Positions 2,796 through 63,305 of a stretch of 64,000 nt of DNA are shown here, piece after piece. A model generated the notes under the pieces. It saw nothing but the letters and a program-made list of their open reading frames with translations. It was not told the origin of the DNA and searched no databases. Within the stretch, counting starts at the first letter, position 1, and every line of letters starts with the position of its first letter. The translations under genes were made by a program, and so were the position numbers. Source of the DNA: Bacteroidota bacterium (GTDB lineage Bacteria > Bacteroidota > Bacteroidia > NS11-12g > UBA955); the NCBI GenBank assembly GCA_027621365.1, contig JAQCBH010000009.1:1-64000 (forward strand), given 5' to 3'.

Positions 2796-2803
2796 TATTT
2801 TTG
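2796..2803 (+). promoter_or_regulatory. ileS -7 box (TATTTTTG)
   Basis: Matches the Bacteroidota -7 consensus TAnnTTTG, lies between the terminator and ileS, and leaves about 21 nt to the ATG at 2825. No clear -33 TTTG is seen. Confidence 0.6.
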
Positions 2804-2824
2804 CCCCTTTCCAAAGAATCTGGC

Positions 2825-5800
2825 ATGTACCCCACCCTCAAGCAACTGAATTGGCCCCAAATCGAGGAAGAAATTCTGGCCTTCTGGAAGGAGAACGGAA
2901 TTTTCGCCCAAAGCGTGGAACAGCGAGACCCCTCGCAGTCCTTTACCTTTTTTGAAGGCCCACCCAGTGCCAACGGTATGCCCGGCATTCACCACGTCAT
3001 GGCCCGAGCCATGAAGGACATGTTCTGCCGCTACAAAACCTTGCAGGGATACCGAGTAGAGCGCAAAGCCGGTTGGGATACCCACGGTTTGCCCATTGAA
3101 TTGCAGGTGGAAAAACGCCTAGGCATTCGCAAAGACGACATTGGAGTGAAAATCTCCATGGAAGACTACAACAAGGCTTGCCGCGAAGACGTCTTCATGT
3201 TCAAAGACCGCTGGGATGCTCTGACCGAGCGAATCGGGTTCTGGGTCGATTTGGAAAACCCCTACATCACTTGCGATACGGAGTATGTCGAGACCTTGTG
3301 GCAATTGCTCAAGCGACTCTACGACAAAGGGTACCTATACAAAGGCTATACCATTCAGCCCTATTCACCCGCTGCGGGAACGGGGTTGTCCAGCCACGAG
3401 CTGAACCAACCTGGCACCTACCAAAATGTCAAAGACACCACCGTTGTGGCGCAGTTTGCCAAAGCGGGCAAACCCGGTGAATACTTTTTGGCTTGGACCA
3501 CCACCCCTTGGACCCTGCCTTCCAACACCGCCTTGGCCGTAGGGGCCAAGATTGACTACATCGAAGTCGATACCTATAACGCATATACCGGCCAAGCCAT
3601 TCGTGTGACCTTGGCTGAAGCCTTGTTGGGCAAACACTTTCAAGCCGAGGCAGAATGCGAAGGCGAATTGCCGGCCTACGATTCTACCGCCAAGGTGCAA
3701 CCTTGGAAACGCGGTAACCGCGTCAAAGGAGCCGACCTAGCGGGTCAATCGTACGAGCAATTGTTGCCCTATGCCCAACCGACCGATGGCGATGACTTCC
3801 GCGTGGTCTGCGCTGATTTTGTGAGCACCGAAGACGGTACGGGTATCGTTCACATTGCCCCATCTTTTGGCGGCGATGACTTCAAGACGGCCAAAGACAA
3901 TGGTATTGGATCTTTGACCTTGGTGGACAAGACGGGTCGTTTTGTGGCTGAAGTCAGCGATTTTGCTGGAGAGTATGTCAAAGAGGCCTACCTGACGGAA
4001 GAGGAGAAAGTGGCGGCCGCAGCGCAGCAAGGCCGCGACAAATACCTGAGTGTAGACGAGCGCTTGGCCATCAAGCTCAAACAAGAAAACAAGGCCTTCA
4101 AGGTCGAGAAATACGAGCACAGCTATCCCCATTGCTGGCGCACAGACAAACCCATTCTTTACTACCCCTTGGAGAGCTGGTTCATAAAAACCACGGCGGC
4201 CAAAGACCGCTTGGTGGAGTTGAACAAAACCATCAACTGGAAGCCTAAGAGCACCGGTGAAGGGCGTTTCGGCCACTGGTTGGAAAACCTGGTCGACTGG
4301 AACTTGTCTCGTTCGCGTTTCTGGGGAACTCCTCTGCCCATTTGGAGAACCGAAGACGGCAGCGAGGAGATCTGCATTGGCAGCTTGGACGAATTGGTGG
4401 CTGAAATCGAAAAGGCCAATGCTCAGCTGGGATTGAATCAATCGATTGATCGCAGCGAATTTGACCTACACCGTCCCTATGTGGACCGAATCACCTTGGT
4501 GAGCGCAACAGGCAAGCCCATGCAGCGCGAGGCCGATTTAATCGACGTTTGGTTTGACTCAGGAGCCATGCCCTATGCCCAGTGGCACTACCCCTTCGAA
4601 AACCTCGATCAATTCGAAAAGAATTACCCCGCCGACTTCATCGCTGAGGGCGTAGACCAAACCCGCGGATGGTTCTTTACCCTTCACACCCTGGCAACCT
4701 TGTTGTTCGACCAAGTGGCCTTCAAAAACGTGATCGCCAACGGCCTCGTTCTAGACAAACACGGCAACAAGATGTCCAAGCGTCTGGGCAATGCCATCGA
4801 TCCCTTTGAGACCGTTGATCAATACGGTGCCGACGCCGTGCGTTGGTACATGACCTCGAACTCTCAGCCTTGGGACAACCTCAAATTTGACCTTTCGGGT
4901 GTTCAAGAGACCCAGCGCAAATTCTTGGGGACCCTTTACAACACCTACGGATTCTTTGCCTTGTATGCCAATGTCGACGGGTTCCAATTCAAGGCCGATC
5001 AACAAATCCCCTTGGCCGAGCGCCCCGAATTGGATCGCTGGATACTGTCTCGCTTGAATTCCTTAATTGCCGAAGCTGAAGCTGCTTTTGACGATTATGA
5101 TCCAACACGAGCCGCCCGAGCCATTGAAGATTTTGTCACCGAACACCTCTCCAACTGGTACGTGCGTTTGTCGCGTCGCCGGTTCTGGAAAGGCGACATG
5201 AACAGCGATAAACAAGCGGCTTATGAGACCTTGTATACCTGCTTGGATGCCGTTTCGCGCATCATGAGCCCAGTGGCCCCCTTCTTCAGCGATTGGTTGT
5301 ACCGCAGCCTGAACAATGACAACACTGTGTCTGTACACATGTGCGATTGGCCCAATTGCGACCACTCGGCTCGCAATGCCGATTTGGAGGCCCAGATGGA
5401 CGCCGCTCAAAACCTGTGTTCGCTGGTCTTGTCCTTGCGCAAAAAGGAAAAAATCAAGGTGCGCCAACCCCTTCAGAAGTTGTTGGTACCCGTGAGCAGC
5501 CAAAAGCAACAAGCCGAAATCGAGCGTGTACGCGACTTGATTCTATCTGAGACCAATGTCAAAGAATTGGAGTTTGTGGGAGCTGACAGCGAAATGCTGG
5601 TCAAACGCATCAAGCCGAATTTCAAAACTCTGGGTAAGCAATTGGGACCTGACATGAAAGCCATGAGCAATGCCGTTCAAGCGTTTGACCAGGACCAAAT
5701 TCGCCAGTTGGAGCAAGAAGGCAGCATCAGCGTTGACCTAGGAACCCGAATGTTTGATTTGAACCTCGCTGATGTGGAAATCAGCACCCAGGACATGCCC

Positions 5801-6118
5801 GGTTGGTTAGTGGCTACCGATGGAGCTCATACCGTGGCCCTCGACATCAGCATCAGCGACGAACTGCGCCTTGAAGGCATGGCCAGAGAACTGATTAACC
5901 GCATCCAAAATTTGAGAAAAGACTCCGGCCTGGAATTGACTGACCGCATTGCGGTAGAATTTTCAGGTTCTGAGGAACTTCGTGAAAGCGCCAATGCTTT
6001 CAACGATTATATTTGTGGCGAAGTACTGGCCAACTCACTGCAATACAGCGAACAAGACCATACTTCTACCGACGAAATCGATGGTGCATCCATCGGCTTA
6101 ACATTGAGAAAAGCATAA
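2825..6118 (+). CDS. ileS: isoleucyl-tRNA synthetase (IleS2-like type)
   Basis: Charges tRNA-Ile with isoleucine in the cytoplasm; class I synthetase. The track ORF begins at 2756 inside the terminator hairpin. The ATG at 2825 (MYPTLKQLNWPQ) is preferred because it follows the terminator and a -7 box and matches the usual N-terminus. 1097 aa. Signature regions are FEGPPSANGMPGIHHV (the HIGH-equivalent in its GIHH form), GWDTHGLPIE, the CP1 editing region (about residues 200-410), DQTRGWFFTLH and KMSKRLGN. The GIHH form and a C-terminus without obvious zinc-binding cysteines fit the eukaryote-like IleS2 branch, usual in Bacteroidota and generally poorly inhibited by mupirocin (family knowledge). 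It heads a run with the dksA-like gene (3 nt gap) and lspA. Confidence 0.97.
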   Translation: MYPTLKQLNWPQIEEEILAFWKENGIFAQSVEQRDPSQSFTFFEGPPSANGMPGIHHVMARAMKDMFCRYKTLQGYRVERKAGWDTHGLPIELQVEKRLGIRKDDIGVKISMEDYNKACREDVFMFKDRWDALTERIGFWVDLENPYITCDTEYVETLWQLLKRLYDKGYLYKGYTIQPYSPAAGTGLSSHELNQPGTYQNVKDTTVVAQFAKAGKPGEYFLAWTTTPWTLPSNTALAVGAKIDYIEVDTYNAYTGQAIRVTLAEALLGKHFQAEAECEGELPAYDSTAKVQPWKRGNRVKGADLAGQSYEQLLPYAQPTDGDDFRVVCADFVSTEDGTGIVHIAPSFGGDDFKTAKDNGIGSLTLVDKTGRFVAEVSDFAGEYVKEAYLTEEEKVAAAAQQGRDKYLSVDERLAIKLKQENKAFKVEKYEHSYPHCWRTDKPILYYPLESWFIKTTAAKDRLVELNKTINWKPKSTGEGRFGHWLENLVDWNLSRSRFWGTPLPIWRTEDGSEEICIGSLDELVAEIEKANAQLGLNQSIDRSEFDLHRPYVDRITLVSATGKPMQREADLIDVWFDSGAMPYAQWHYPFENLDQFEKNYPADFIAEGVDQTRGWFFTLHTLATLLFDQVAFKNVIANGLVLDKHGNKMSKRLGNAIDPFETVDQYGADAVRWYMTSNSQPWDNLKFDLSGVQETQRKFLGTLYNTYGFFALYANVDGFQFKADQQIPLAERPELDRWILSRLNSLIAEAEAAFDDYDPTRAARAIEDFVTEHLSNWYVRLSRRRFWKGDMNSDKQAAYETLYTCLDAVSRIMSPVAPFFSDWLYRSLNNDNTVSVHMCDWPNCDHSARNADLEAQMDAAQNLCSLVLSLRKKEKIKVRQPLQKLLVPVSSQKQQAEIERVRDLILSETNVKELEFVGADSEMLVKRIKPNFKTLGKQLGPDMKAMSNAVQAFDQDQIRQLEQEGSISVDLGTRMFDLNLADVEISTQDMPGWLVATDGAHTVALDISISDELRLEGMARELINRIQNLRKDSGLELTDRIAVEFSGSEELRESANAFNDYICGEVLANSLQYSEQDHTSTDEIDGASIGLTLRKA

Positions 6119-6121
6119 ACA

Positions 6122-6490
6122 ATGGAAAAGACTCGCTACTCCGAAGAAGAACTGCAAGAGTTCAAAGAAATCATCCTGAAGAAATTGGAAAACGCCAAAG
6201 GCGAATTCAAAACCTTGTCTTCCCAAATCCGTGACGAAGACGAAACCGGCGATAGCTCAAACAACAATTATTTGACCTTGGACGACGGTGCTGACACCTT
6301 CGAAAAGGAAAATTTGAACCAGCTGGCTGGCCACCAAATGAAGTTCATCAAGAACTTGGAAGCTGCCTTGGTACGCATCGAAAACGGCACCTACGGGGTT
6401 TGCAAAACGTCAGGCAAATTGATCCCCAAAGAGCGTTTGCGCATTGTGCCCCACGCTACTCAAACCGTAGAAGCCAAGCTCAAGCGTTAA
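6122..6490 (+). CDS. TraR/DksA-family protein with degenerate zinc finger
   Basis: 122 aa. An N-terminal coiled-coil-like helical part (about residues 1-85) is followed by a DksA C4-type finger region, YGVCKTSGKLIPKERL then VPHATQTVEAKL. Of the four cysteines expected in CxxC-x17-CxxC only one remains; the others are T/S, P or H. The fold probably persists without zinc, as in several Bacteroidota members. DksA-family proteins bind RNA polymerase through the secondary channel to modulate transcription, often with ppGpp. Whether this one does so is inferred from family only. It lies 3 nt after ileS and just before lspA, an arrangement common in Bacteroidota. Confidence 0.88.
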   Translation: MEKTRYSEEELQEFKEIILKKLENAKGEFKTLSSQIRDEDETGDSSNNNYLTLDDGADTFEKENLNQLAGHQMKFIKNLEAALVRIENGTYGVCKTSGKLIPKERLRIVPHATQTVEAKLKR

Positions 6491-6493
6491 TTC

Positions 6494-7096
6494 TTGGAAA
6501 CTCCAGAAATCAACAAACGCAGTCTGCTATTTTGGATGCCCATAGCCGTATTGGCCTTGGGCATTATCATTGACCAGGTCATCAAGATTTGGGTCAAAAC
6601 CCATTTTCTATACGGCGAAAGTGTGCCCGTGTTCGGCGATTGGTTCAAGCTGTATTTCATTGAAAACAACGGCATGGCCTTTGGCAAAGAGCTCTTCGGT
6701 GGTTCGCGCATGGGCAAATACATTTTGACCTTTTTCCGAATCGGCGTATCCGTATTTGGATTCTGGTTCTTGTGGAGCCAAATGATCAAAAAGGCCCCAA
6801 AGGGCTTGTTGATTGCTATTGCTTTGATCATGGCCGGCGCGGTGGGCAACATCATCGACTCCATTTTTTACGGAGTCATCTTTCATGGACACAACGCCTA
6901 TAGCGGTTCTTGGTTTGAAGGACAAGTCGTCGACATGTTCTACGCCCCTATGTGGGAAGGCCATCTTCCCGAGTGGTTGCCGCTATGGGGTGGAGACTTT
7001 TTTGTCTTCTTTAGCCCCATCTGGAATTTCGCCGATGCGTGCATCACTGTAGGGGTTGCAGTCATGATTCTGGGACAGCGCCGCTTTTTTGGCTAA
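6494..7096 (+). CDS. lspA: signal peptidase II (lipoprotein signal peptidase)
   Basis: Inner-membrane aspartyl protease that cleaves the signal peptide of diacylated prolipoproteins. 200 aa with four predicted membrane segments (about residues 12-30, 75-97, 104-122, 175-195). Conserved parts are DQVIK, ENNGMAFG, the catalytic Asp in GQVVDMFY (about 147) and the second in NFADACI (about 181). The two Asps are 34 residues apart, against roughly 19 in E. coli, so the periplasmic loop is enlarged (EGHLPEWLPLWGGD). The start is TTG at 6494, 3 nt after the dksA-like stop; no better ATG is available upstream. Several lipoproteins in this window would be its substrates. Confidence 0.95.
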   Translation: METPEINKRSLLFWMPIAVLALGIIIDQVIKIWVKTHFLYGESVPVFGDWFKLYFIENNGMAFGKELFGGSRMGKYILTFFRIGVSVFGFWFLWSQMIKKAPKGLLIAIALIMAGAVGNIIDSIFYGVIFHGHNAYSGSWFEGQVVDMFYAPMWEGHLPEWLPLWGGDFFVFFSPIWNFADACITVGVAVMILGQRRFFG

Positions 7097-7101
7097 TTTT
7101 G
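7094..7101 (+). promoter_or_regulatory. lysS -7 box (TAATTTTG) overlapping the lspA stop codon
   Basis: TAATTTTG matches TAnnTTTG. Its first three bases are the TAA stop of lspA, and the lysS ATG is 13 nt further on. This predicts a lysS transcript independent of the ileS-lspA run. Confidence 0.6.
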
Positions 7102-7114
7102 CGCTTCAATTCCC

Positions 7115-8653
7115 ATGGAAGCCTCTTTGAATGAGCAGCAGCTGCTGCGCCGTCAATCGCTGGAAGAGCTGAAAAGCCTTGGCATCGATCCTTTTCCCGC
7201 TGAACTGTATCCCGTTAGCCACCAGGCTGCCAACATACGTGCTGAATACCCAACCAATCCTGAAGCCTTTTCGAAGGTAGTGATCGCTGGGCGTTTGATG
7301 ACCCGTCGCGTCATGGGTAAAGCCGCTTTTGGTGATATTTTGGACAGTTCAGGCCGCATTCAGGTTTACGTCAACCGCGACGAAATTTGCCCTGACGAAG
7401 ACAAAACCCTGTACAACACGGTTTTCAAAAAGTTGCTCGACATCGGGGATATCATTGGCATTGAAGGCCATGTATTCACCACCCAAACGGGCGAGATTTC
7501 GGTGCACGCCAAATCGATCAAAATCTTGGCAAAATGCTTGAATCCGCTGCCATTGCCCAAAGAAAAAGATGGCGTGGTGTACGACGCTTTCACCGACCCC
7601 GAGGCCCGCTACCGCATGCGCTACGTAGACCTGATCGTCAACCCCCAGATTCGCGAGACCTTCATTAAGCGTACCAAGGTGGTGCAGAGCCTTCGAAATA
7701 CCTTCAACGCCAAGGGTTATTTGGAAGTGGAAACCCCCATTTTGCAGCCCATTCACGGGGGTGCAGCGGCCCGTCCCTTCATTACCCACCACAATGCCTT
7801 GGACATTCCCTTGTACCTGCGCATTGCCAATGAATTGTACCTCAAGCGCCTGATTGTCGGTGGGTTTGACGGTGTATACGAATTCGCGAAAAACTTCCGC
7901 AACGAGGGCATCGACCGCACCCACAACCCCGAATTCACGGGTTTGGAAATCTATGTAGCCTACAAAGACTACTATTGGATGATGGACTTCGTGGAAGAAA
8001 TGCTGGAAACCTGTGCCATGGACGTGGCAGGCCAAACCAGCGTCAAGGTCGGCGAACGTGAAATTTCATTTGCCCGCCCGTACCAGCGCTACACCATGGC
8101 TGAGTCCATTCTCAAGTATGGCAACTTTGATATCGAAGGAAAGTCTGAAGCCGAATTGGGCGAATTCGCCAAATCTTTGGGTTGCGAAGTGACCGGCAAG
8201 ATGGGATCGGCCAAATTGATCGACGAGATTTTTGGCGCCTGTGTCGAAGAACATTTGATCCAGCCCACCTTCATCATCGACTACCCTGTAGAGATGAGCC
8301 CTTTGACCAAAAAGCACCGCTCCAAGCCAGGATTGGTGGAGCGTTTTGAGTTGTTTGTCAACGGCAAGGAAATTGCCAACGCCTACAGCGAGTTGAACGA
8401 CCCCATCGACCAAAAAGAGCGTTTTGAAGATCAATTGAAATTGGCCGAACGCGGAGATGAAGAAGCCATGGCCATGGACCACGACTTCGTTCGCGCTCTG
8501 GAATACGGAATGCCTCCCACTTCTGGTTTGGGCATAGGAATTGACCGTTTGACCATGCTGCTGACCAACCAGGTCAGCATCCAAGAGGTCTTGTTCTTCC
8601 CTCAAATGCGCCCCGAAAGAGGTTCAGCTTCGGCTCCCAGCGAAGACAAGTAA
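7115..8653 (+). CDS. lysS: lysyl-tRNA synthetase, class II
   Basis: Charges tRNA-Lys with lysine. 512 aa. The N-terminal OB-fold anticodon-binding domain covers about residues 50-150 ([20 protein letters not shown]). The class II catalytic core includes motif 2 ([18 protein letters not shown]) and motif 3 ([15 protein letters not shown]). Length and motifs are normal for the bacterial enzyme. Its TAA stop overlaps the ATG of the following 80-aa gene (TAATG), implying translational coupling. The -7 box lies 13 nt before the start, so the leader is very short. Confidence 0.97.
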
Positions 8654-8895
8654 TGGACATATTGGCGAGTGAAAAAGCCGTACTCGGTTGCCTGATTCAC
8701 CCCGAGAGGCTCGATACAGTTATGCAGGAAACAGGTCTTACACGACCCGTCGCTGCAGACATACTGCGCCAACTGCATCACCACGGCTTTATCAAATGTT
8801 TGGACGCCAAAGGCAAACCCGTTTTGAACTACGACGCTGACCGATTGGCCAGCGTTCGATTTACTCTTTCTGCCAAGGGCTTTGACGCTCTTTAA
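8653..8895 (+). CDS. small winged-helix-like protein coupled to lysS
   Basis: 80 aa, overlapping the lysS stop by one base (TAATG). The sequence reads like a compact winged helix: [21 protein letters not shown], then a helix-turn-helix-like stretch (MQETGLTRPVAADILRQL), a recognition-helix-like HHHGFIKCL and a wing (DAKGKPVLNYD). No named family is recognised. It could be a MarR/ArsR-like mini regulator or a structural helper. Normal codon use and the coupling to an essential gene argue that it is real. It contains no enzymatic motif. Confidence 0.7.
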   Translation: MDILASEKAVLGCLIHPERLDTVMQETGLTRPVAADILRQLHHHGFIKCLDAKGKPVLNYDADRLASVRFTLSAKGFDAL

Positions 8896-8986: not shown

Positions 8987-9017
8987 CGAAACCAAAATAC
9001 CAAGAGGCAAAGCTGTC

Positions 9018-10304
<1,287 letters not shown>

Positions 10305-10362: not shown

Positions 10363-10370
10363 TACTTTTG
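10363..10370 (+). promoter_or_regulatory. TonB receptor -7 box (TACTTTTG)
   Basis: Exact TAnnTTTG match ending 7 nt before the ATG at 10378, which predicts a nearly leaderless transcript. Confidence 0.65.
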
Positions 10371-15710: not shown

Positions 15711-15718
15711 CAAAGATA
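15711..15718 (-). promoter_or_regulatory. uvrB -7 box (TATCTTTG), 4 nt from ATG
   Basis: On the minus strand the sequence reads TATCTTTGCGGGATGGCC. The exact -7 match ends 4 nt before the start codon, which predicts a leaderless uvrB mRNA. Confidence 0.7.
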
Positions 15719-15763: not shown

Positions 15764-15771
15764 TATCTTTG
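15764..15771 (+). promoter_or_regulatory. E1 fusion gene -7 box (TATCTTTG), 6 nt from ATG
   Basis: Plus strand TATCTTTGCACCCGATG. Together with the uvrB box it forms a divergent promoter pair in a 71-nt intergenic region. Confidence 0.7.
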
Positions 15772-24832: not shown

Positions 24833-24840
24833 CAAATTTC
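24833..24840 (-). promoter_or_regulatory. M1 peptidase -7 box variant (GAAATTTG), 4 nt from GTG
   Basis: The minus strand reads GAAATTTGTTGGGTG. One mismatch to TAnnTTTG, with the same 4-nt spacing to the start as several other genes here. Confidence 0.45.
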
Positions 24841-24895: not shown

Positions 24896-24903
24896 TACAT
24901 TCG
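24896..24903 (+). promoter_or_regulatory. EamA gene -7 box variant (TACATTCG), 4 nt from GTG
   Basis: TACATTCGCGCCGTG. One mismatch to the consensus; the start codon is 4 nt downstream, which predicts a leaderless mRNA. Confidence 0.5.
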
Positions 24904-28413: not shown

Positions 28414-29266
28414 CTTTTTTTTAGGGATTGCTTGCAAAGCCCTACTGGGGTTGATGATTCTTCATCCCCTGTCTCTGAATGCCCAAAAATGGTTTGCCGG
28501 GCGTCAGGAAATGGGAATATGCTTGGGTATGAGCGGATACATGGGTGACTTGACCCATGGTACCACGACATTGGATCAGTTGCATCCGTCGGCAGCCTTG
28601 TACCACCGCTACAATTTCTCGGGATACTTCAGCATGCGCAACCAGCTGTCTTACTTGAGCATCAGCGGCGATGATACGCGTCAAGGCAAGATGTTGATGG
28701 ACAACGGAACCTCTCATTACGCTTACCGAAATTTGAATTTCCAATCGAACGTGGTGGAGTATTCCTCTATGGTGGAGTTCAACTTTCACAACTTTGGCAC
28801 CAATGCCGGCAACGAGGTTTTCACCCCTTACGCCTTTACAGGCTTGGCCTTGTTCTACTTTGATCCCCATCGCCTGGACGACCCCGGAATCAACTTGAGA
28901 AACCTGAACACCGAAAATCGCACGCGCACCTACAGCCACTTGCAGCCTGCCATACCCTTGGGATTTGGAATCAAGTCCATCACTTATTCCAAAAAGAACC
29001 GCGGGGCCTTCATTGTAGGCATCGAAGCTTGTTGGCGACATACCTACACCGACTACTTGGACGACGTCAACTCTTCCTACCCCAATTATTGGGAAAAGCA
29101 GCTCAACGAAGGCATTGGCCCTGCCCAATACAGTCACGCCCAAACCTTGAATGGATCAGAGCCCTTCAGCGCTGGAACCATGAGGGGCGATGTTCATCGA
29201 AAAGACTGGTACTATTTCTACGGTTTAAACCTCTCTTACCGCTTTACACCGCTCACTTGTCGTTAA
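28385..29266 (+). CDS. DUF6089-like outer-membrane beta-barrel protein (second copy)
   Basis: 293 aa from a GTG at 28385, overlapping the first copy by 29 nt; a downstream start at the ATG in GLMILHPLSLNAQ is possible but would shorten the signal peptide. Shares block order with copy 1: MGICLGMSGYMGDLTHG against GLFLGGSNYMGDLTPS, LSYLSISGDDTRQGK against VFGRISGDDKNYG, and EACWRHTYTDYLDDVNSSY against EFGIRQTFTDYMDDISKDY. The two genes therefore arose by tandem duplication. The stop TAA forms the first three bases of the uppS -7 box. Confidence 0.8.
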   Translation: MAKRSASSSNFFLGIACKALLGLMILHPLSLNAQKWFAGRQEMGICLGMSGYMGDLTHGTTTLDQLHPSAALYHRYNFSGYFSMRNQLSYLSISGDDTRQGKMLMDNGTSHYAYRNLNFQSNVVEYSSMVEFNFHNFGTNAGNEVFTPYAFTGLALFYFDPHRLDDPGINLRNLNTENRTRTYSHLQPAIPLGFGIKSITYSKKNRGAFIVGIEACWRHTYTDYLDDVNSSYPNYWEKQLNEGIGPAQYSHAQTLNGSEPFSAGTMRGDVHRKDWYYFYGLNLSYRFTPLTCR

Positions 29267-29271
29267 CTTTG
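29264..29271 (+). promoter_or_regulatory. uppS -7 box (TAACTTTG) overlapping the upstream stop codon
   Basis: Exact TAnnTTTG match. Its TAA is the stop of the second DUF6089 gene, and the GTG start of uppS is 7 nt downstream. Confidence 0.6.
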
Positions 29272-29278
29272 CAAGCCC

Positions 29279-30034
29279 GTGATTGACCCTCAATTGAAAG
29301 CCCAAATCGACCCCGCACGTTTGCCTCAGCACGTGGCCATCATCATGGATGGAAACGGTCGTTGGGCCAAGCAGCAGGGGCACCTTCGGGTATTCGGCCA
29401 CAAGCACGGAGTCAAAGCCGTACGCTCGGCCATCGAAACGGCCACCGAATTGGGCATTGGCTACCTCACTCTGTACGCCTTTTCTACTGAAAACTGGAAC
29501 CGCCCTCAATTCGAGATCAATGCCTTGATGGAGCTCTTGGTCAACACAATCGAAAAAGAGACTCCTACCTTGATGAAAAACGGCATTCGCTTGGAAACCA
29601 TTGGCAATACAGACCAACTTCCAAAAGACTGCCGTCAAACCCTTCTCAAAACCGTTGAGAAAACCAAAGACAACGACCGCATGACGCTGATCCTGGCCCT
29701 GAGTTATTCCGGGCGCTGGGACATCATTGAAGCGGTTCGCAACATTAGCAAACGCATCCAATCGGGAGATTTGCAGCCCGATGAGATCGACGAAACGGTG
29801 CTCAACTCCGCCTTGAATACGGCGGCCTATCCCAATCCTGACTTGTTGATTCGCACCAGCGGTGAACAGCGCATTTCCAACTTCTTACTCTGGGAAATTG
29901 CCTATTCCGAAATTCACTTCACACCCGTGTTATGGCCTGATTTCGGTGTAGAAGATTTCTGCAACGCCCTTCTGGATTTCCAAAGCCGCGAACGTCGCTT
30001 TGGCAAAACAGGAGAACAACTGAAAACCCCTTGA
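29279..30034 (+). CDS. uppS: isoprenyl transferase (undecaprenyl diphosphate synthase)
   Basis: 251 aa from GTG. cis-prenyltransferase making the C55 lipid carrier for peptidoglycan and surface glycans. Signature HVAIIMDGNGRWAKQQG with the catalytic Asp, GHKHGVKAVR, YAFSTENWNRP, and the C-terminal LIRTSGEQRISNFLLWE and YSEIHFTPVLWPDF. Normal length. The TGA stop overlaps the bamA TTG start (TTGA), coupling it to the outer-membrane assembly gene. Cytoplasmic and membrane associated. Confidence 0.97.
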   Translation: MIDPQLKAQIDPARLPQHVAIIMDGNGRWAKQQGHLRVFGHKHGVKAVRSAIETATELGIGYLTLYAFSTENWNRPQFEINALMELLVNTIEKETPTLMKNGIRLETIGNTDQLPKDCRQTLLKTVEKTKDNDRMTLILALSYSGRWDIIEAVRNISKRIQSGDLQPDEIDETVLNSALNTAAYPNPDLLIRTSGEQRISNFLLWEIAYSEIHFTPVLWPDFGVEDFCNALLDFQSRERRFGKTGEQLKTP

Positions 30035-34144: not shown

Positions 34145-34152
34145 CAAATCTA
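34145..34152 (-). promoter_or_regulatory. AlkD-like gene -7 box (TAGATTTG), 7 nt from ATG
   Basis: The minus strand reads TAGATTTGCTTTTTGATG, an exact TAnnTTTG with 7-nt spacing. It lies inside the 20-nt gap between divergent starts. Confidence 0.55.
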
Positions 34153-36221: not shown

Positions 36222-37503
36222 GAATGCGTAGTTCTAGTTCTTCCAAACGGGCCCCTTGGGCTTGGGTGATGCTGAATTCATAACGACCACAGCGCAAATT
36301 CTCGCCCTCTGCGGGTATTTTTTCGGTGCAGTGAATCACAAAGCCGCCCAAAGTGGTGTAATCCCCTTCAGGAATTTCCAGGTCGTATTTTTGATTCAGA
36401 TGATCTACCTCGAGGCGAGCCGAGAATCGGTAATGATTGGGTCCCAACTGAACGGCTGAAGCATCGTCGGTATCGAATTCATCTTCAATTTCACCAAATA
36501 TCTCTTCGACCACGTCTTCGATGGTTGCCATACCCGCTGTGCCTCCGAATTCATCAATGGCCAAGGCCACACTGCGCTTTTCTTGGATGAAGCGGCGCAG
36601 CAATTCTTGAGCCTGCAGGGTTTCTGAGGCAATCAAAACAGGGTGTACGATGTCGCGAATGCGCTCGGGTTGGTGAAACAAATCGCTGTGGTGCACAAAA
36701 CCCATGATGGAATCCAATGGGTCTTGGGGAGCATCTTCAGCCTCGCTGAGTCGATAGACCAAAATGCGCGACAAGGACGATTCGATAAACAAGGATCGCA
36801 GTTCCGAGATGGGAGCTTCGATGTCAATGGCCACCATATCCCTGCGGGGCACCAAAAAGTCCTTGACCCGAACGTCTGAAAATTCCAAGGCGTTTTTGAA
36901 GGCTTCGGTGTCGATTTCGCTCTCTTCCGAACCTTCGTTCTTTTCAAGCGAAGACAAGTAATTGTCCAAATCTACTTTGGTAAACACCGGCGGATTCTCG
37001 CCTTGCACCTGCTTGGTAATCAACTTCAGCAATCCAGACGACAACTGACGAGTCAACTGTATCAAAGGCCACAACACAAGGTGCGACAAACGAAAGGGAG
37101 CCGCTAAAGTGAAAAGCAGGGAGTCGGCGTGCAAACGAAACAGCGTCTTGGGTAAAAATTCAGCCGTCACCAACACCACCAAGGTACTGACGATGGTGAT
37201 GAGCAAGAACTCGGCCACGGCGCCTAATCCGATGGGATGAAACAAACGGAGCAACAAGTCGCTCATGTACATGCCGTAGATAACCAAAGCCAGGTTGGTC
37301 GCGACCAAAACGGTGGAGATGAACTCCGTAGGACGTTTGGTGTACCAGGCCATCCAGCGACCGCCCCAACCCCCGTTTTTTCCTTTCAACTCAATGCGCA
37401 AACGCGAAGCCGATAGAAAAGCGATCTCCATGCCTGAGAAAAAGGCTATGGTGACCAGGCAGATCAAAACCACCAATATGTGGGAGGGAGGAATGGGATC
37501 CAT
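36205..37503 (-). CDS. CNNM/CorC (hemolysin)-family membrane protein
   Basis: 432 aa from the ATG at 37503; the track's TTG two codons earlier is not needed. CNNM/DUF21 membrane domain with four hydrophobic segments (about residues 5-140, including FFSGMEIAFLSASRLRIEL and TAEFLPKTLF), tandem CBS domains (VRVKDFLVPRRDMVAIDIEAPI ... DPLDSIMGFVHHSDLF, about 205-335) with AIDEFGGTAGMATIEDVVEEIFGEI, and a C-terminal CorC/HlyC transporter-associated domain. The family is linked to magnesium/cobalt homeostasis; some Bacteroidota members (GldE) affect gliding. Inner membrane. First gene of a three-gene operon, divergent from purK. Confidence 0.93.
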   Translation of the reverse strand: MDPIPPSHILVVLICLVTIAFFSGMEIAFLSASRLRIELKGKNGGWGGRWMAWYTKRPTEFISTVLVATNLALVIYGMYMSDLLLRLFHPIGLGAVAEFLLITIVSTLVVLVTAEFLPKTLFRLHADSLLFTLAAPFRLSHLVLWPLIQLTRQLSSGLLKLITKQVQGENPPVFTKVDLDNYLSSLEKNEGSEESEIDTEAFKNALEFSDVRVKDFLVPRRDMVAIDIEAPISELRSLFIESSLSRILVYRLSEAEDAPQDPLDSIMGFVHHSDLFHQPERIRDIVHPVLIASETLQAQELLRRFIQEKRSVALAIDEFGGTAGMATIEDVVEEIFGEIEDEFDTDDASAVQLGPNHYRFSARLEVDHLNQKYDLEIPEGDYTTLGGFVIHCTEKIPAEGENLRCGRYEFSITQAQGARLEELELRIHASEE

Positions 37504-37510
37504 GAACAAT

Positions 37511-37518
37511 CAAAGATA
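37511..37518 (-). promoter_or_regulatory. CorC-like gene -7 box (TATCTTTG), 7 nt from ATG
   Basis: The minus strand reads TATCTTTGATTGTTCATG. It forms one arm of a perfect 10-bp inverted repeat with the purK -7 box. Confidence 0.65.
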
Positions 37519-37533
37519 GCAAAAAGCACATGC

Positions 37534-37541
37534 TATCTTTG
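37534..37541 (+). promoter_or_regulatory. purK -7 box (TATCTTTG), 4 nt from ATG
   Basis: TATCTTTGCGGCATG, an exact match with 4-nt spacing, so a leaderless transcript is predicted. The arms CAAAGATAGC (37511-37520) and GCTATCTTTG (37532-37541) flank an 11-nt spacer. Confidence 0.7.
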
Positions 37542-37545
37542 CGGC

Positions 37546-38751
37546 ATGTCGGAGGGAAGCGAACAAGCAAGCAATCAGCCATTGATTGGCATCATCGGTG
37601 GGGGTCAATTGGGCATGATGATGCTCGAAGCAGCCAAGGGTTGCGCCACCCGAATGAACAAAGATTCAGAGGCCCTGCCTCCAGCCCGCTACCGCGTGCT
37701 GGAAGCCAGCCGTGATTGTCCCGCTGCCTATTTAGCCGATGAGTTGATCGTCGGTTCGCTCAAAGACGACGCCGCCATTCGCCGACTGGCCGATGGCTGT
37801 TCGGCCCTGACCTGGGAGATCGAACACGTCAACGTACAAACGCTGATGGATTTGGAAGCTCGGGGCAAAACCGTCATTCCTTCTCCCAAAGTTTTGCAAA
37901 TTGTGCAAGACAAGGGCTTGCAGAAAGAATTTTACGCGAAAAATGCCATTGCTACGGCTCCTTTTTTGCTCGTTGATTCCAAGCGCATAGATGCGAGCAC
38001 CCTGGATGCCTTTCCTGGAGACCAGGTTGTCATCAAGGCGCGCACAGGTGGCTACGACGGCAAAGGAGTTGCCATTTGCAGCAAGAGAGACCTCATGAAG
38101 GGTTACCGGCCTTTTGAAGGGCCCGTATTGTTGGAAACCTTTGCCGAAGACGCACTGGAACTGTCGGTTATCGTGGCCGTCGACCAGCAGGGCAACAGAG
38201 CTTGTTACCCCAGCATTGAAATGTATTTCCACCCCATCAGCAACCTGGTGGAGTTCTTGTTTTCTCCGGCCCAAACTCCGGCATCAGTTCGAGAGCGGGC
38301 TCAAGCCTTAGCCTTGAAAACGGTATCGGCCTTTGACAGCCCAGGTTTGTTTGCCGTTGAACTGTTCATGCTGCCCAACGGCACCTTGTGGGTCAACGAG
38401 ATGGCCCCTAGACCTCACAACAGCGGGCACCACAGCATTGAAGGTTGCGCTACTAGCCAATTCGAACAATTGGACCGCATACTTTTGGGCTTGACCCTGG
38501 GGCCCACCGATCTCTTGCAACCCTCAGCCATGATCAACTTGGTAGGGCCTGAAGGATTATCGGGATCCTATCAATTGGAAAACCATGAGACCTGGAACCA
38601 GAGTTCAGACGTGTTTGTGCACCTTTACCGCAAAACAGAGACTCGCCCCCATCGCAAATTAGGGCACGTCACTGTCATAGCCGATACGCTAGAGGAACTG
38701 CTGGTTCGCGCTGGGCAGGTGCAAAAGGAATTGAAAATTGTAGGGGCCTAA
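37546..38751 (+). CDS. purK: 5-(carboxyamino)imidazole ribonucleotide synthase
   Basis: 401 aa from the ATG at 37546 (MSEGSEQASNQPLIGIIGGGQLGMMM). ATP-grasp enzyme that carboxylates AIR to N5-CAIR in purine synthesis. The N-terminal nucleotide-binding GGGQLG precedes the ATP-grasp core (VVIKARTGGYDGKGVAIC, VSAFDSPGLFAVELFML, LWVNEMAPRPHNSGHHSIEG) and a C-terminal beta domain. A small insertion (RMNKDSEALPPARYRVLE) sits between the first helix and the second strand. The partner purE is not in the window. purF lies 0.6 kb away on the other strand. Convergent with frr. Confidence 0.96.
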   Translation: MSEGSEQASNQPLIGIIGGGQLGMMMLEAAKGCATRMNKDSEALPPARYRVLEASRDCPAAYLADELIVGSLKDDAAIRRLADGCSALTWEIEHVNVQTLMDLEARGKTVIPSPKVLQIVQDKGLQKEFYAKNAIATAPFLLVDSKRIDASTLDAFPGDQVVIKARTGGYDGKGVAICSKRDLMKGYRPFEGPVLLETFAEDALELSVIVAVDQQGNRACYPSIEMYFHPISNLVEFLFSPAQTPASVRERAQALALKTVSAFDSPGLFAVELFMLPNGTLWVNEMAPRPHNSGHHSIEGCATSQFEQLDRILLGLTLGPTDLLQPSAMINLVGPEGLSGSYQLENHETWNQSSDVFVHLYRKTETRPHRKLGHVTVIADTLEELLVRAGQVQKELKIVGA

Positions 38752-39338: not shown

Positions 39339-39346
39339 CAAATGTA
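39339..39346 (-). promoter_or_regulatory. frr -7 box (TACATTTG), 11 nt from ATG
   Basis: The minus strand reads TACATTTGTACCCCATAACATG, an exact TAnnTTTG between the purF stop and the frr start. Confidence 0.6.
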
Positions 39347-41265: not shown

Positions 41266-41273
41266 CAAAGGTA
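41266..41273 (-). promoter_or_regulatory. purF -7 box (TACCTTTG), 10 nt from ATG
   Basis: The minus strand reads TACCTTTGTGTTGCTACCATG, an exact match. Divergent partner of the dioxygenase promoter at 41307. Confidence 0.6.
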
Positions 41274-41306: not shown

Positions 41307-41314
41307 TAATTTTG
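41307..41314 (+). promoter_or_regulatory. Dioxygenase gene -7 box (TAATTTTG), 4 nt from ATG
   Basis: TAATTTTGGATTATG, an exact TAnnTTTG with 4-nt spacing, so a leaderless transcript is predicted. Confidence 0.65.
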
Positions 41315-42831: not shown

Positions 42832-42839
42832 TACCTTTG
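42832..42839 (+). promoter_or_regulatory. Fumarylacetoacetase-family gene -7 box (TACCTTTG), 4 nt from ATG
   Basis: TACCTTTGTACCATG, an exact TAnnTTTG with 4-nt spacing. Divergent from the RmlD-like promoter. Confidence 0.7.
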
Positions 42840-55107: not shown

Positions 55108-55115
55108 CAAAGATA
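55108..55115 (-). promoter_or_regulatory. 3-hydroxyacyl-CoA dehydrogenase -7 box (TATCTTTG), 7 nt from ATG
   Basis: The minus strand reads TATCTTTGTTCAAGCATG. Exact consensus match with a 7-nt gap. Confidence 0.65.
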
Positions 55116-58375: not shown

Positions 58376-59376
58376 TAACCCTGTGAAGAGAAGTCTCCAA
58401 TGCTGTAGACCTGGCTGCGCCCGTCGATGGAAACCTGGTTTCCGATCATGGAGTCTTGGCATTGAAAATGAGTCAAGTTGCATTCGTTCAGGAGTATGCT
58501 GTTGCTGATGTTGCAGTGCTGGAGCTTGCTGCCCTTGCCAATGGCCACATGGGGCCCGATCTGGCAATGGCTCAATTCTACACCTTCGGCAATATAGCAA
58601 GGTTCTACTATCTGTACATGCTCAGGGAAACGCCCTGGGGTCAGACCAAACTGTTCTTTCTTGTTTTCCAATACGCGTTGGTTGGTGTATACCGTGGCCG
58701 CGTAGTTGCCGCAATCTAACCACTCGTCAACCTTACCAGGCATGAACTGCATGCCCTTCTGCTTCATGTTTTCCATGGCATTGGTCAACTGGTATTCGCC
58801 TTTTTCCTTGATGTCGTTGTCAATCAAATATTGCAATTCCGCATTCAAGGTTTCTCCACTCTTGAAGTAGTAAATGCCGATGATGGCCAAATCGGAAACG
58901 AATTCGGTGGGTTTTTCCACGAAGTCGGTGATGACCCCATCTTGGTTGTACTTCACCACCCCAAATTGCTCGGGATTGGCTACTTGGTGAACAAAAATCA
59001 CCCCGTCCTTGCTGCGATCCAAACGGAAATCAGAGCGGAACAAGGTATCGGCAAAGGCCACGATTACCTCGCCCTGCAAGCATTCTTTGGCGCAGAGAAT
59101 GGCATGGCCGGTTCCCAAGGCCTCCTCTTGGTAGAAAATGCGGCCCTTGGCACCAATTTGATCGGCAATGGCCAACAATTGAGCTTCTACTTCGGCACCA
59201 AAATCACCGATGACAAATCCTACCTCATCGATGGGCTCGTCGGTCATGGCGGCAATGTCTTCAATCAACCAATGCACAATCGACTTGCCCGCAACGGGAA
59301 TCAAGGGTTTGGCAGTGGTTAAAGTATGGGGCCTCATGCGCTTGCCGCGCCCGGCCATAGGAATGATTAGTTTCAT
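58375..59376 (-). CDS. sugar-phosphate nucleotidyltransferase with left-handed beta-helix tail
   Basis: 333 aa from the ATG at 59376 (MKLIIPMAGRGKRMRPHTLT). N-terminal nucleotidyltransferase (GxGxRMRPxT pyrophosphorylase motif, AKPLIPVAGKS, VIVAFADTLF, GVVKYNQDGVITDFVEKP) and a C-terminal hexapeptide-type beta helix (CQIGPHVAIGKGSKLQHCNISNSILL). Makes an NDP-sugar from sugar-1-phosphate, consistent with the flippase gene in the same operon. Substrate (glucose-type or mannose-type) not assignable by eye. Confidence 0.93.
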   Translation of the reverse strand: MKLIIPMAGRGKRMRPHTLTTAKPLIPVAGKSIVHWLIEDIAAMTDEPIDEVGFVIGDFGAEVEAQLLAIADQIGAKGRIFYQEEALGTGHAILCAKECLQGEVIVAFADTLFRSDFRLDRSKDGVIFVHQVANPEQFGVVKYNQDGVITDFVEKPTEFVSDLAIIGIYYFKSGETLNAELQYLIDNDIKEKGEYQLTNAMENMKQKGMQFMPGKVDEWLDCGNYAATVYTNQRVLENKKEQFGLTPGRFPEHVQIVEPCYIAEGVELSHCQIGPHVAIGKGSKLQHCNISNSILLNECNLTHFQCQDSMIGNQVSIDGRSQVYSIGDFSSQG

Positions 59377-59484
59377 AGTATTCGTGGCATTAGGGCCAAA
59401 AACGGGCACAAAGTACGCCAATCAAAGGCACTTTTCCCTTTCAGACTTGTTTAATGAGTGTGAACTTTTGACGAATTGCCGGTC

Positions 59485-59925
59485 TCAAACCCCGCTTGAA
59501 CCATAGCCTCCTGCACCGCGCTCAGTGGCATCCAAAGAGTCGGTCAAGGTCCAGTCTACGCGTTCGTGTTTGGCGATGACCATCTGAGCCATTCGATCTC
59601 CGTCTTTCACTTCAAAGGGCTCCGATCCGTGGTTGATCAGCAGCACTTTTATTTCCCCTCGGTAGTCAGCATCGATGGTACCAGGGCTGTTCAAAACGGT
59701 AATGCCGTGCTTGAGTGCCAAGCCACTTCGGGGACGCACTTGAGCTTCGTATCTGCTGGGGAGAGCCATGAACAAACCCGTGGGAATCAAGGTGCGTTCA
59801 CCCGGTGCTATGACCACAGGCTCGCTCACAAAAGCGCGCAGATCCAAACCGGCACTCAACTCCGTTTCGTGTGAAGGCAAGGGGTGGTGAGAGCGATTGA
59901 TGATGGGTATGTTCAAGGAATTCAT
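59485..59925 (-). CDS. dut: dUTP diphosphatase
   Basis: 146 aa from the ATG at 59925, overlapping the flippase stop (ATGA); the track's 80 leading residues are readthrough. Trimeric dUTPase motifs: 1 AGLDLRAF, 2 [11 protein letters not shown], 3 [20 protein letters not shown], 4 [13 protein letters not shown] and 5 [10 protein letters not shown] at the C-terminus. Hydrolyses dUTP to dUMP, protecting DNA and feeding dTTP synthesis. Its position between flippase and nucleotidyltransferase is a conserved Bacteroidota arrangement without an obvious pathway link. Confidence 0.96.
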
Positions 59926-61391
59926 GATTTTGATTTTATGCGTTTCCAAGGGCGCTCGATCAACCAAACACCCATGAGGTAGGCGGGAACAGCCATCCAA
60001 GCCAATGACTGCAATTCGGGCATGGTAAGAACCGCGTATCCGCAGGCGAATGCCAGAGTCAAGGCTGGAAGAATTTTGCCCAACTCGTAGGGAATCGGAT
60101 AGGCTTTTTGCCCCCAGATGTAGGCGGCTATGACCATACTGGCATAGGCCCCCAAGGTGGTCCAAGCCGAACCTTCAAAGCCCAAACGGGGTATCAAATA
60201 AAAGTTTCCGACCAGGGTCAACATAGCACCTCCGAGGGCGATGATGGCGCCCCATTGGGTTTTGCCTGACACCTTGTACCATACACTCAAATTGTAATAC
60301 AAACCCAGGCAGACATTGGCCGCTAGCAATATGGGCACCACCGACATGCCGCGGTTATCGGCAAAATATTGGGGGTTGCGAATCAGCAAAGGACCCAAGA
60401 AGGGCAAGGACACCAGTGTGGCCAAAAAGAGAAACCCGACCACATAGCTGAACCAGCGCATCACATAGGCATAGGTTTCGGGGGCTTTTTCATCGCCAGC
60501 CCGGCTGAAAAAGAAGGGTTCAGCTGCAAAGCGAAAGGCCTGCACAAAAAGAGTGAGCACCAGGCTCAATTTGTAAAAGGCCGAATATACCCCCACCTCG
60601 TATTCAGCACTTCCATTCGGAAGCAAGTGCTTCAATAAAATACGGTCGAAGGTTTCATTCACCATACCCGCCAAACCCACCACTACCATAGGCAGAGAAT
60701 AGCGCAGCATGTCGTTGAGCAAGCCCCTATCCAGTCCTTCTCGCAAATTGGAAAAAGCTCCGGCCAACAGAGGCAAAGTCACCACAGAGGCCAGCAGGTT
60801 GGAAAGGAAAATGTTTGACACCATTTGTTCAGGCCTGGCCCAGTATACGGCCCATTCGTGTCCTTGCGAAGCCCAATAGGGACAGAGTAATACGAAAAAC
60901 AGGTTGGCCCCGATGTTGACCCCAATGTTCGTCAGCCGCACGGCGGCAAAGGCCCAGGGCTTTTCTTGCTGCCTCAACCAGGCAAAGCCTAACGCAGACA
61001 AAGCATCGGCCGCCAAAATAATGGCAAACCACAAGGCGTATTCAGGGTGTTCGGGATAGCCCAACAAATCCATGATGGGCAATGCAAATAACTTGGCAGT
61101 CAATACCGCAAATAATCCAGTTATGATTAGCGCATGGCCTGCCGTAGCAAAAACACGAGCCGGGTTTTCGGTCTTGCGGGCGAAATGGAAAAAGCCTGTC
61201 TCCAAACCCAAGGCGGCCAGAACCGCTCCGAACGAGGCGTAGGCGAACATCACACTCACCACCCCGTAGTCCCCGACCAAGGCCAGTTTGGCGGTATACA
61301 AGGGTACCAATAAAAAGTTCAGGAATCGCCCCACCATCGTACTCAAACCGTAGACGGCAGTCTGCGAAGCCAGCTTTTTCAGAATTGACAC
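59922..61391 (-). CDS. polysaccharide flippase (Wzx/MATE-like MVF family)
   Basis: 489 aa from GTG. About 12-14 hydrophobic segments over the full length, starting [25 protein letters not shown], a common N-terminus of polysaccharide translocases. Conserved [25 protein letters not shown]-like central region; C-terminus positively charged ([10 protein letters not shown]). Moves lipid-linked glycans across the inner membrane. First gene of a six-gene minus-strand operon; promoter 4 nt before the start. Confidence 0.92.
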
Positions 61392-61395
61392 GATT

Positions 61396-61403
61396 CAAAG
61401 GTA
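61396..61403 (-). promoter_or_regulatory. Flippase operon -7 box (TACCTTTG), 4 nt from GTG
   Basis: The minus strand reads TACCTTTGAATCGTG. Exact match with 4-nt spacing; drives the flippase-dut-nucleotidyltransferase-TPR-DUF4292-EnvC run. Confidence 0.7.
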
Positions 61404-61475
61404 AAGGGACAAGCCCTACCAAATGAAAGATCTTGAATGAATAGGGGGCTCTTCTTCGACTAGGAAAAAGACACT

Positions 61476-61527
61476 AATTCAGAAAAACACAGTAGGGGAT
61501 ACTGCCATTAAAAAGTGTTTCTGAATT
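61476..61527 (-). terminator. Nested inverted repeat, probable terminator after the lipoprotein gene
   Basis: AATTCAGAAA(aa)ACAC at 61476-61490 pairs with GTGTTTCTGAATT at 61515-61527, enclosing a second hairpin CAGTA-GGGGA-TACTG. On the minus strand a T-run follows several nt later. It sits 20 nt past the lipoprotein stop, at the border of the AT-rich block. Confidence 0.6.
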
Positions 61528-61546
61528 CTACCAATTTGCGTTTTAC

Positions 61547-62329
61547 CTAATTATTTCTCTTTTCCTTTCTTACGAAATAACGTGAACTCGACATCCCGCC
61601 GTAATAGAGTTTAAATTTCTCTTTCGATAGTATTGAGATTGTGCCCCAATTTCCTTTGAAAAATGAAGATCCTCCATACCATGAACGCCACATTCTTGGA
61701 ACCATAGAAAATTTTCCATTTTTTGAATACCTCACATTCATATACATGAGCATATCCTTGGTCCATCCATCATAATAGTTATCGCTGTATCCATGTAAAT
61801 TTCTGGTTTTTTCCCCTTTTACCTCTTTCTCTACCCATTTGAAATAAACCTTATGACTCGCAAAGCCTCCAACACCTTGCCACGTGTAATTCGTGAGAAT
61901 GTTAGTTAGATACTGATTGCTGATTTGTCCCTTTAACTCATCTGTTAAACCATTCTCTTTGTCATCCAACAGGTCGAAAACATAAGACATTGTATCAGAC
62001 TCACCCTTTTTCAAGATGTAATCAACCAATGATTGCTGCATGCCTCCAACAAATTTCTGGTCCTCTTTCATCATTTTACACGCCTCTTCAAAATCTTCCC
62101 AATTTTCTGACTTGATTAGGCCTACAAAACATTGCTTGATTCTCGCTTTACCTGAATCTTGCCATTCTTTATCTTCAGCATCTATTCGCTGAAACTCCCC
62201 TATGGCCTTACAAAACTTCTTATTTGACAATTCTGTCATTCCCTTTTCAAATTCTTCTGGAGGACCACAGGACACAAAAGCAAGTGAAATGAATAAAACA
62301 ACAGTTGAGAGTATTTTAAAATTTTTCAT
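61547..62329 (-). CDS. hypothetical lipoprotein, AT-rich block
   Basis: 260 aa from the ATG at 62329 (MKNFKILSTVVLFISLAFVSCGPPEE, lipobox FVSC). The N-terminal half is charged and helical (MTELSNKKFCKAIGEFQRIDAEDKEWQDSGKARIKQCFVGLI, TPR-like spacing), the C-terminal half strand-rich (ASHKVYFKWVEKEVKGEKTRNLHGYSDNYYDG, KFSMVPRMWRSWYGGSSFFKGNWGTISILSKEKFKLYY). No family recognised. The C-terminal domain resembles lipocalin-like stress-response folds only vaguely. Codon use is AT-shifted compared with the left 61 kb. Confidence 0.75.
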   Translation of the reverse strand: MKNFKILSTVVLFISLAFVSCGPPEEFEKGMTELSNKKFCKAIGEFQRIDAEDKEWQDSGKARIKQCFVGLIKSENWEDFEEACKMMKEDQKFVGGMQQSLVDYILKKGESDTMSYVFDLLDDKENGLTDELKGQISNQYLTNILTNYTWQGVGGFASHKVYFKWVEKEVKGEKTRNLHGYSDNYYDGWTKDMLMYMNVRYSKNGKFSMVPRMWRSWYGGSSFFKGNWGTISILSKEKFKLYYGGMSSSRYFVRKEKRNN

Positions 62330-62424
62330 TTTTGGTAGGTTAACAATGTAAAAATAGAAGGAAACCAATTTGTTACAAAACAATTCACCGTAAATTTTTG
62401 TGAATGACACTCCATTCTTAATCC

Positions 62425-63165
62425 TCAGTACTGAATTGTGTTAAGTTGAAAGTCCGGAAAAAACGTCGCAGACCCTTTGGAATTGTTCAAGAGAAATTCA
62501 TACAACTCTTCCGTTCGGAACATTCTCTCCAAGGCACCATGATTCAATTGACCAAACTCTGTGAACCGCAGATTCTGATCGTTGCATTCTCGTATGGCAT
62601 TCGCCATAACTACCGATTCCCTGAAAGGGATGGCCTCATCTCTTTTACCATGCGCGATCCAAACTGGAATTGTCGATAACCTGCACCCGTCAACCGTCTT
62701 ACCTCCCCCACAAAAAGCAGCCGCCGCACAAAACATATCAGGAAATTTCCCTGCCGTATGCAACGTACCATATCCACCTAAACTCATTCCAGTAATCGAT
62801 ATGCGATTGGTATCGATGCTATTCGAAGCTATAACCGATTGAATACACTTAACAACACTATCCGGTTTCCATAATTGGCCCTTTCTTACCTGGGGAGCTA
62901 CGATGACGGCTGGAAAAGACCTTCCTTTTCTCACTTCCGCAATCAATCCATATCGTTTGACCAAATTCAAATCCGTTCCACTCAACGATCGACCATGCAA
63001 GAAAACCATTAAAGGCCAATTAAATCCACTATCAGCATTGTAATTATCTGGTAAGTAAATCCAATACGGATAGGGTGACTGGCTGGAACTAATCGTGTAC
63101 AAATTTTGTCCGAACCCGACAAACGGCAATAGACCTAAAACATAAATAAAAAGTCTTTTTTTCAT
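62425..63165 (-). CDS. secreted alpha/beta-hydrolase (esterase/depolymerase-like)
   Basis: 246 aa from the ATG at 63165 (MKKRLFIYVLGLLPFVGFGQ signal peptide). Alpha/beta-hydrolase with intact triad candidates: nucleophile GMSLGGYGT, Asp in AHGKRDEAIPF, His in QLNHGALERMF; oxyanion region MVFLHGRSLSG. Resembles PHB-depolymerase/feruloyl-esterase-like enzymes (phospholipase/carboxylesterase type). Secreted to the periplasm, with no T9SS tail. AT-rich, divergent from the partial gene at 63327. Contrast with the first window hydrolase, which has lost its Ser. Confidence 0.88.
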   Translation of the reverse strand: MKKRLFIYVLGLLPFVGFGQNLYTISSSQSPYPYWIYLPDNYNADSGFNWPLMVFLHGRSLSGTDLNLVKRYGLIAEVRKGRSFPAVIVAPQVRKGQLWKPDSVVKCIQSVIASNSIDTNRISITGMSLGGYGTLHTAGKFPDMFCAAAAFCGGGKTVDGCRLSTIPVWIAHGKRDEAIPFRESVVMANAIRECNDQNLRFTEFGQLNHGALERMFRTEELYEFLLNNSKGSATFFPDFQLNTIQY

Positions 63166-63297
63166 TACAACATTGGACTTATAAACAGAGGTTGCGATGC
63201 AAAATAAACAATATAACACTAACCCCTGGCTCCTTGGAAAATAAAACTACGCTTATTAGACCAAAAAATTGATAAAAATGCTTTTTATTGCAATCCA

Positions 63298-63305
63298 TAA
63301 TTTTG
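63298..63305 (+). promoter_or_regulatory. -7 box (TAATTTTG) before the partial right-end gene
   Basis: Exact TAnnTTTG match 21 nt before the ATG at 63327; supports this ORF being expressed on the plus strand. Confidence 0.5.

Follow-up and report, generated by a model that had tools for sequence, protein, structure and literature searches.

In a 64,000-nucleotide (nt) stretch of DNA from an uncultured Bacteroidota bacterium (assembly GCA_027621365.1, contig JAQCBH010000009.1, positions 1 to 64,000; hereafter the window), the promoter box TAnnTTTG recurs within a few nt of start codons. Analysis of the window, of the genome to which it belongs and of related genomes suggests that these boxes are sigma-A promoters merged with the start codon, which would give rise to leaderless or near-leaderless mRNAs on a large scale. 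We assign this reading a probability of about 0.86.

The window is part of a 2.13-Mb genome (94% complete, 35 contigs) of a freshwater-type, uncultured genus of Bacteroidota; the nearest named records of its UvrB protein are 72-82% identical and derive mostly from metagenome-assembled genomes (MAGs) of lakes, reservoirs, and ponds, habitats being taken from record titles. The whole genome was scanned by pattern counts, in which TAnnTTTG-N4-ATG was compared with an N20 spacing and with a reversed control. Finer counts were made in an 862-kb sample composed of the window and other stretches of the same genome, the sequence of which was read directly. Genes in this sample (673) were predicted with a simple caller blind to promoters, gene families were checked against Pfam and NCBIfam, and genes with a divergent neighbor or an upstream gap of at least 50 nt were considered first in their transcription unit.

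Genome-wide, 138 matches to TAnnTTTG-N4-ATG were retrieved, versus 19 for N20 and 20 for the reversed control. In the 862-kb sample, ATG was found 9, 65, 15, 21, 16, 12, 15, 13, and 13 times at distances of 3 to 11 nt from the box (expected 8.4), i.e., an excess with a shoulder out to 11 nt and background levels beyond, while GTG showed a small excess at 4 nt (10 cases). The peak at 4-7 nt that a first-pass annotation of the window had predicted for such a count was thus obtained, dominated by the distance of exactly 4. Exact boxes at 3-7 nt preceded 63 of the 313 first-in-unit genes, 34 of them at exactly 4, versus 0.7 in shuffled upstream sequences, and were three times rarer among intra-operon genes (20/320, ~6%), so that their typical place is ahead of a transcription unit and not within an operon. 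Some of the intra-operon boxes are kept in a congener (e.g., uppS, 29264-29279) and are candidate internal leaderless promoters. With a matrix derived by expectation-maximization (EM), which allows degenerate boxes, the proportion of first genes having a box 3-7 nt away came to 34% (18% for a distance of exactly 4), and a further 8% had one at 8-12 nt; the same matrix found almost nothing in shuffled upstream sequences. We relied on exact-box counts and on comparisons with a fixed position weight matrix (PWM); EM with a free PWM was set aside, since in intra-operon genes and in Cytophagales it moved off toward weak motifs, gamma being close to 1. The commonest one-mismatch forms at spacing 4 across the genome had G in the first place (7) or C in the seventh (5), with about 0.3 expected of each, and these are the two forms present in the window, at the M1 peptidase and EamA genes. 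Of the spacing-4 genes, 46/47 use ATG, a codon already used by about 92-94% of genes elsewhere.

The EM matrix of first genes (T 72%, A 78%, [TCA], [CT], T 97%, T 99%, T 84%, G 93%) corresponds to the known -7 element of the Bacteroidota sigma-A (sigmaABfr), TAnnTTTG or TAHHTTTG, and G is avoided at the two free positions (6% and 1%), as it is in the -7 element of Flavobacterium johnsoniae (PMC6847099). Near-start boxes and boxes 12-70 nt away have in common an A-poor patch just 5' of the box, which is absent at boxes inside coding regions and might extend the sigma-A element. In the sample from this genome, A made up about 7-20% of the 3-4 nt that precede the box, at near and distant boxes alike. 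No TTG peak indicative of a -33 TTTG/TTG element was detected 8-27 nt upstream of near-start boxes; this element is an unreliable criterion, because the -33 signal is likewise slight in F. johnsoniae (PMC6847099). Box choice, upstream context, and position before transcription units together identify the near-start box as a predicted sigma-A promoter and not a ribosome site.

Near-start boxes are seldom accompanied by another: only 2/89 genes with such a box contained a further exact match within 92 nt. Among genes of divergent pairs no more than 80 bp apart, 23/78 carried an exact box 3-7 nt from the start; gaps this short cannot accommodate a promoter further away. These observations make it quite unlikely that near-start boxes are secondary promoters and that most mRNA originates, with ordinary leaders, at stronger promoters upstream. 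Genes with several promoters are indeed common and degenerate upstream boxes are possible, but exact second boxes are scarce and divergent pairs separated by 20-58 bp often leave no space for them. The fixed spacing to the start codon could also be that of a ribosome-binding site, in which case the motif would be a translation-initiation element of the mRNA (a UUUG-type site near the AUG). We regard this as very unlikely, given that the motif reproduces the sigma-A consensus down to the avoidance of G at the free positions (PMC6847099), that its frequency falls threefold in intra-operon genes although these would need a ribosome site equally, and that the element, together with its upstream context, also occurs at longer distances.

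Comparison with congeners (genome G363 plus a few pieces of G362) yielded 91 orthologue pairs aligning at the N-terminus. In all 16 pairs in which the gene of the present genome has an exact box at 3-7 nt, the congener likewise has an exact one in this range, its spacing being unchanged or shifted by one nt, while the flanks of these pairs (-45 to -13) were only 53% identical; among the other pairs, the congener had a box in 1/75. At uvrB, an exact box was found 3-11 nt upstream in 9/10 near relatives (10/10 allowing one mismatch), in 16/27 Sphingobacteriaceae, and in 2/29 Cytophagales, making uvrB a candidate for an anciently near-leaderless gene. The same data address the possibility that start codons were mis-called and that true starts lie downstream, behind leaders of normal length. 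Start calls were computational, and the putative flippase and M1 peptidase use GTG or alternative starts. On the other side, the gene caller was blind to the box, ATG specifically rather than any codon peaks at 4 nt, the uvrB starts are fixed by orthologue alignment and that of the dioxygenase because its Pfam model aligns from residue 4, and the 91 N-terminally aligned pairs include the 16 with a box, so that systematic mis-calling is highly improbable. Finally, chance occurrence in AT-rich intergenic sequence, for which the box total of the window could speak (31 versus 34.7 in shuffles, i.e., not above chance), is already refuted by the ~8-fold enrichment at one base, the ~90-fold enrichment at 3-7 nt over shuffled upstream sequences, and the conservation, as the first-pass annotation had argued from recurrence: what is non-random about the boxes of the window is their position, not their number.

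In F. johnsoniae, transcription starts 4-5 nt after the box (PMC6847099). At this distance, a spacing of 4 puts +1 on the A of the ATG, and spacings of 5-7 correspond to leaders of 0-3 nt; box spacing and the published distance together thus predict 5' ends at or near the ATG. The base preceding the start codon was C in 74% of genes at spacing 4 and in 68% at spacings 5-7 (55/77, 71%, for 4-7 together), versus 115/259 (44%, p = 3e-5) of intra-operon genes and 19/54 (35%, p = 7e-5) of leadered genes with a distant box, and this C stays adjacent to the ATG as the box spacing changes. Such a C-1/A+1 pattern is expected if a C/A initiator, selected by the polymerase at one of its usual distances, became the start codon. 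The proposal of the first-pass annotation that transcription would begin at or near the start codon is therefore supported by the genome-wide peak, by conservation in congeners, and by this signature. Under the proposed mechanism, an ordinary sigma-A -7 box would lie so near the start codon that RNA polymerase initiates at the A of the ATG when the spacing is 4 and, when it is 5-7, at the ATG or no more than about 3 nt away, yielding a leaderless or near-leaderless mRNA. Its 5'-terminal AUG would then be bound directly by a ribosome with initiator tRNA, a mode of binding that would dispense with Shine-Dalgarno (SD) pairing and also with the A-rich upstream context used by the leadered genes of the phylum; direct recognition of a 5'-terminal AUG is reviewed in PMC9031893. 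About one third of the transcription units of the genus may be so organized, the arrangement being most frequent at short intergenic regions.

Some points weigh against the merger of promoter and start codon. The 5' ends are predicted from sequence alone, one-mismatch promoters could exist further upstream of some genes, the assembly is of the MAG type (35 contigs) with home-made gene and start calls, and the translation factors are ordinary, so nothing independent marks a ribosome adapted to leaderless messages. Likewise, a rewired ribosome was considered and rejected: the 16S rRNA tail (...CCACCTCCTTTCT) has an intact anti-SD, bS21 and S1 are both present, and nothing unusual was seen. Folding of the first 30 nt of the mRNA (mean -2.2 vs -2.5 kcal/mol) was not informative. 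The argument of the first-pass annotation that SD sequences cannot fit between box and start carries no weight, because the phylum hardly uses them anyway. Coupling of box and start was commonest at short intergenic gaps; although this is only a correlation, it suggests compaction as a route. We can tentatively propose, at slightly less than even odds, that leaderless or near-leaderless starts are the single commonest way in which transcription units begin in this genus (~42% of first genes at spacings of 3-12, or roughly half of the first genes in which a box is recognizable), and that they evolved within Bacteroidota as intergenic compaction brought promoters up to the start codon, the ribosome being SD-blind and the translation machinery showing no obvious change.

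One pipeline and one matrix were used to compare, among relatives, how many first genes carry a box 3-7 nt from the start. Their share amounted to 33.7% in the present genome and 34.9% in the congener, followed by 20% in an f7 genome, 16.5% in an f3 genome, 13.6% in Sphingobacteriaceae, and 12% in an f25 genome (a 200-kb sample of G144), with lower values in an f4 genome (5.9%), a low-GC f5/g6 genome (4.2%), and Cytophagales (3.6%). The samples of the f7, f3, f4, f5/g6, and f25 genomes comprised 36-90 first genes each. The low shares are close to those of published maps of transcription start sites (TSSs; 3.7-5.5%), which supports the method. In a survey of N4 and N20 counts across 297 genomes of the phylum and 108 of the order, the N4-minus-N20 excess (figures taken by eye from whole-genome counts) was highest in the three members of the genus, at about 56, 54, and 48 per Mb, compared with up to ~42 per Mb in the remaining genera of the family and only ~5-10 in the sister family f52. 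Genome size alone was rejected as a cause, as f52 genomes are 1.4-2.5 Mb in size and their N4 counts are only slightly above N20. Near-start boxes are thus not general to Bacteroidota: they are strong in the genus, weaker in the family, and at the published background elsewhere. In f25 genomes, which belong to another class, N4/N20 counts were 56/5 (G144), 38/7 (G136), 50/10 (G101), and 33/4 (G105), which suggests that f25 may be an independent leaderless-prone lineage. A search for the FMO protein, made to see whether f25 represents green sulphur bacteria, had no match in any genome, including the controls.

Within the phylum, leaderless messages amount to 5.5% in Flavobacterium psychrophilum (PMC9723704), about 3.7% of 5' untranslated regions are shorter than 10 nt in Bacteroides thetaiotaomicron (PMC7366714), and 13% of leaders are 10 nt or shorter in F. 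johnsoniae (PMC6847099). These three species share with the present genus the phylum, the TAnnTTTG promoter, and the box-to-TSS distance of 4-5 nt; however, there leaderless messages are a small minority by RNA sequencing, whereas here ~34% of first genes are predicted, from DNA sequence, to have leaders of 0-3 nt. Outside the phylum, leaderless messages reach about 60% in Deinococcus deserti and about 20-25% in Mycobacterium smegmatis and M. tuberculosis (PMC9031893). As in those lineages, the AUG here would stand at the 5' end. On the other hand, Deinococcus and Mycobacterium belong to unrelated phyla, have a different box (of the TANNNT type), and also use SD sequences, which Bacteroidota hardly do. 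Two surveys likewise asked about leaderlessness from sequence. Zheng et al. (2011), considering Pribnow-like boxes only, detected leaderless genes in a single genome among 37 from Bacteroidetes/Chlorobi, and warned of underestimation where promoters are non-Pribnow (PMC3160421); the present lineage is such a case, missed by a search of that type. In Bacteroidetes and Chlorobi, Nakagawa et al. (2017) described AT-rich signals at -20 to -10 and a C immediately preceding the start codon (PMC5397173). We found no report of frequent leaderlessness in this lineage in the open-access literature. What is already known is the existence of leaderless-rich bacteria outside the phylum and of a few percent of leaderless messages inside it, and what is new is this lineage and its frequency.

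In all published Bacteroidota TSS maps that we found, leaderless mRNAs are rare, and this rarity serves as an argument against leaderlessness as the explanation for SD loss in Bacteroidota. The question is reopened by the present lineage, where roughly one third of the units look leaderless. The strength of the signal in one genus and its weakness in a sister family offer a natural comparison for promoter-start coupling on ribosomes that sequester the anti-SD. On the practical side, TAHHTTTG-N3-CATG could be used as a direct gene-start signal, improving the annotation of start codons and promoters in these genomes.

In the window itself, a plausible start is preceded at a distance of 4, 6, or 7 nt by TAnnTTTG with at most one mismatch in 13 of the 14 genes named by the first-pass annotation (Table 1). 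All seven assignments at spacing 4 were confirmed, five with exact boxes (uvrB, purK, dioxygenase, FAH, and flippase) and two with one mismatch (EamA and M1). Of the seven at spacings of 6-7, exact boxes were found for the E1 fusion, TonB, uppS, AlkD-like, CorC-like, and 3-hydroxyacyl-CoA dehydrogenase genes, while the RmlD-like gene was rejected as a box carrier, its best candidate having two mismatches. The name of the putative flippase rests on a weak polysaccharide-biosynthesis match alone.

Table 1. Near-start TAnnTTTG boxes in the window, with strand, distance to the start codon, and downstream gene
Box	Position (strand)	Distance to start (nt)	Gene	Start codon (position)	Remarks
TACTTTTG	10363..10370 (+)	7	TonB-dependent receptor	ATG (10378)	Exact; profile match
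TATCTTTG	15711..15718 (-)	4	uvrB	ATG (15706, -)	Exact; UvrB Pfam; N-terminus aligned with orthologues
TATCTTTG	15764..15771 (+)	6	E1 alpha/beta fusion	ATG (15778)	Exact; profile match
GAAATTTG	24833..24840 (-)	4	M1 peptidase	GTG (24828, -)	Variant, one mismatch; M1 domain; divergent from EamA
TACATTCG	24896..24903 (+)	4	EamA	GTG (24908)	Variant, one mismatch (C in seventh place)
TAACTTTG	29264..29271 (+)	7	uppS	GTG (29279)	Exact; at end of preceding gene; identical in congener
TAGATTTG	34145..34152 (-)	7	AlkD-like	ATG (34137, -)	Exact; congener has TATTTTTG at spacing 6
TATCTTTG	37511..37518 (-)	7	CorC-like	ATG (37503, -)	Exact; kept in congener
TATCTTTG	37534..37541 (+)	4	purK	ATG (37546)	Exact
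TACATTTG	39339..39346 (-)	11	Ribosome recycling factor (frr)	ATG (39327, -)	Short leader predicted
TACCTTTG	41266..41273 (-)	10	PurF-like amidotransferase	ATG (41255, -)	Short leader predicted
TAATTTTG	41307..41314 (+)	4	3-hydroxyanthranilate dioxygenase	ATG (41319)	Exact; kept in congener
TACCTTTG	42832..42839 (+)	4	FAH-family hydrolase	ATG (42844)	Exact; profile match
TATCTTTG	55108..55115 (-)	7	3-hydroxyacyl-CoA dehydrogenase	ATG (55100, -)	Exact; profile match
TACCTTTG	61396..61403 (-)	4	Putative flippase	GTG (61391, -)	Exact

The gap between purK and the CorC-like gene (37503-37546) measures only 42 bp and holds one box per strand, TATCTTTG in both cases, at spacings of 4 and 7; as the two boxes stand so close together, the two predicted promoters must overlap. 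The outermost boxes, at 2796 and 63305, are not located 4-7 nt from any called start. The former (2796-2803) falls within the longest reading frame of ileS, which begins at 2756, and an in-frame ATG is found at 2825. This suggests that the true start of ileS may be 2825, with a predicted leader of about 16 nt.
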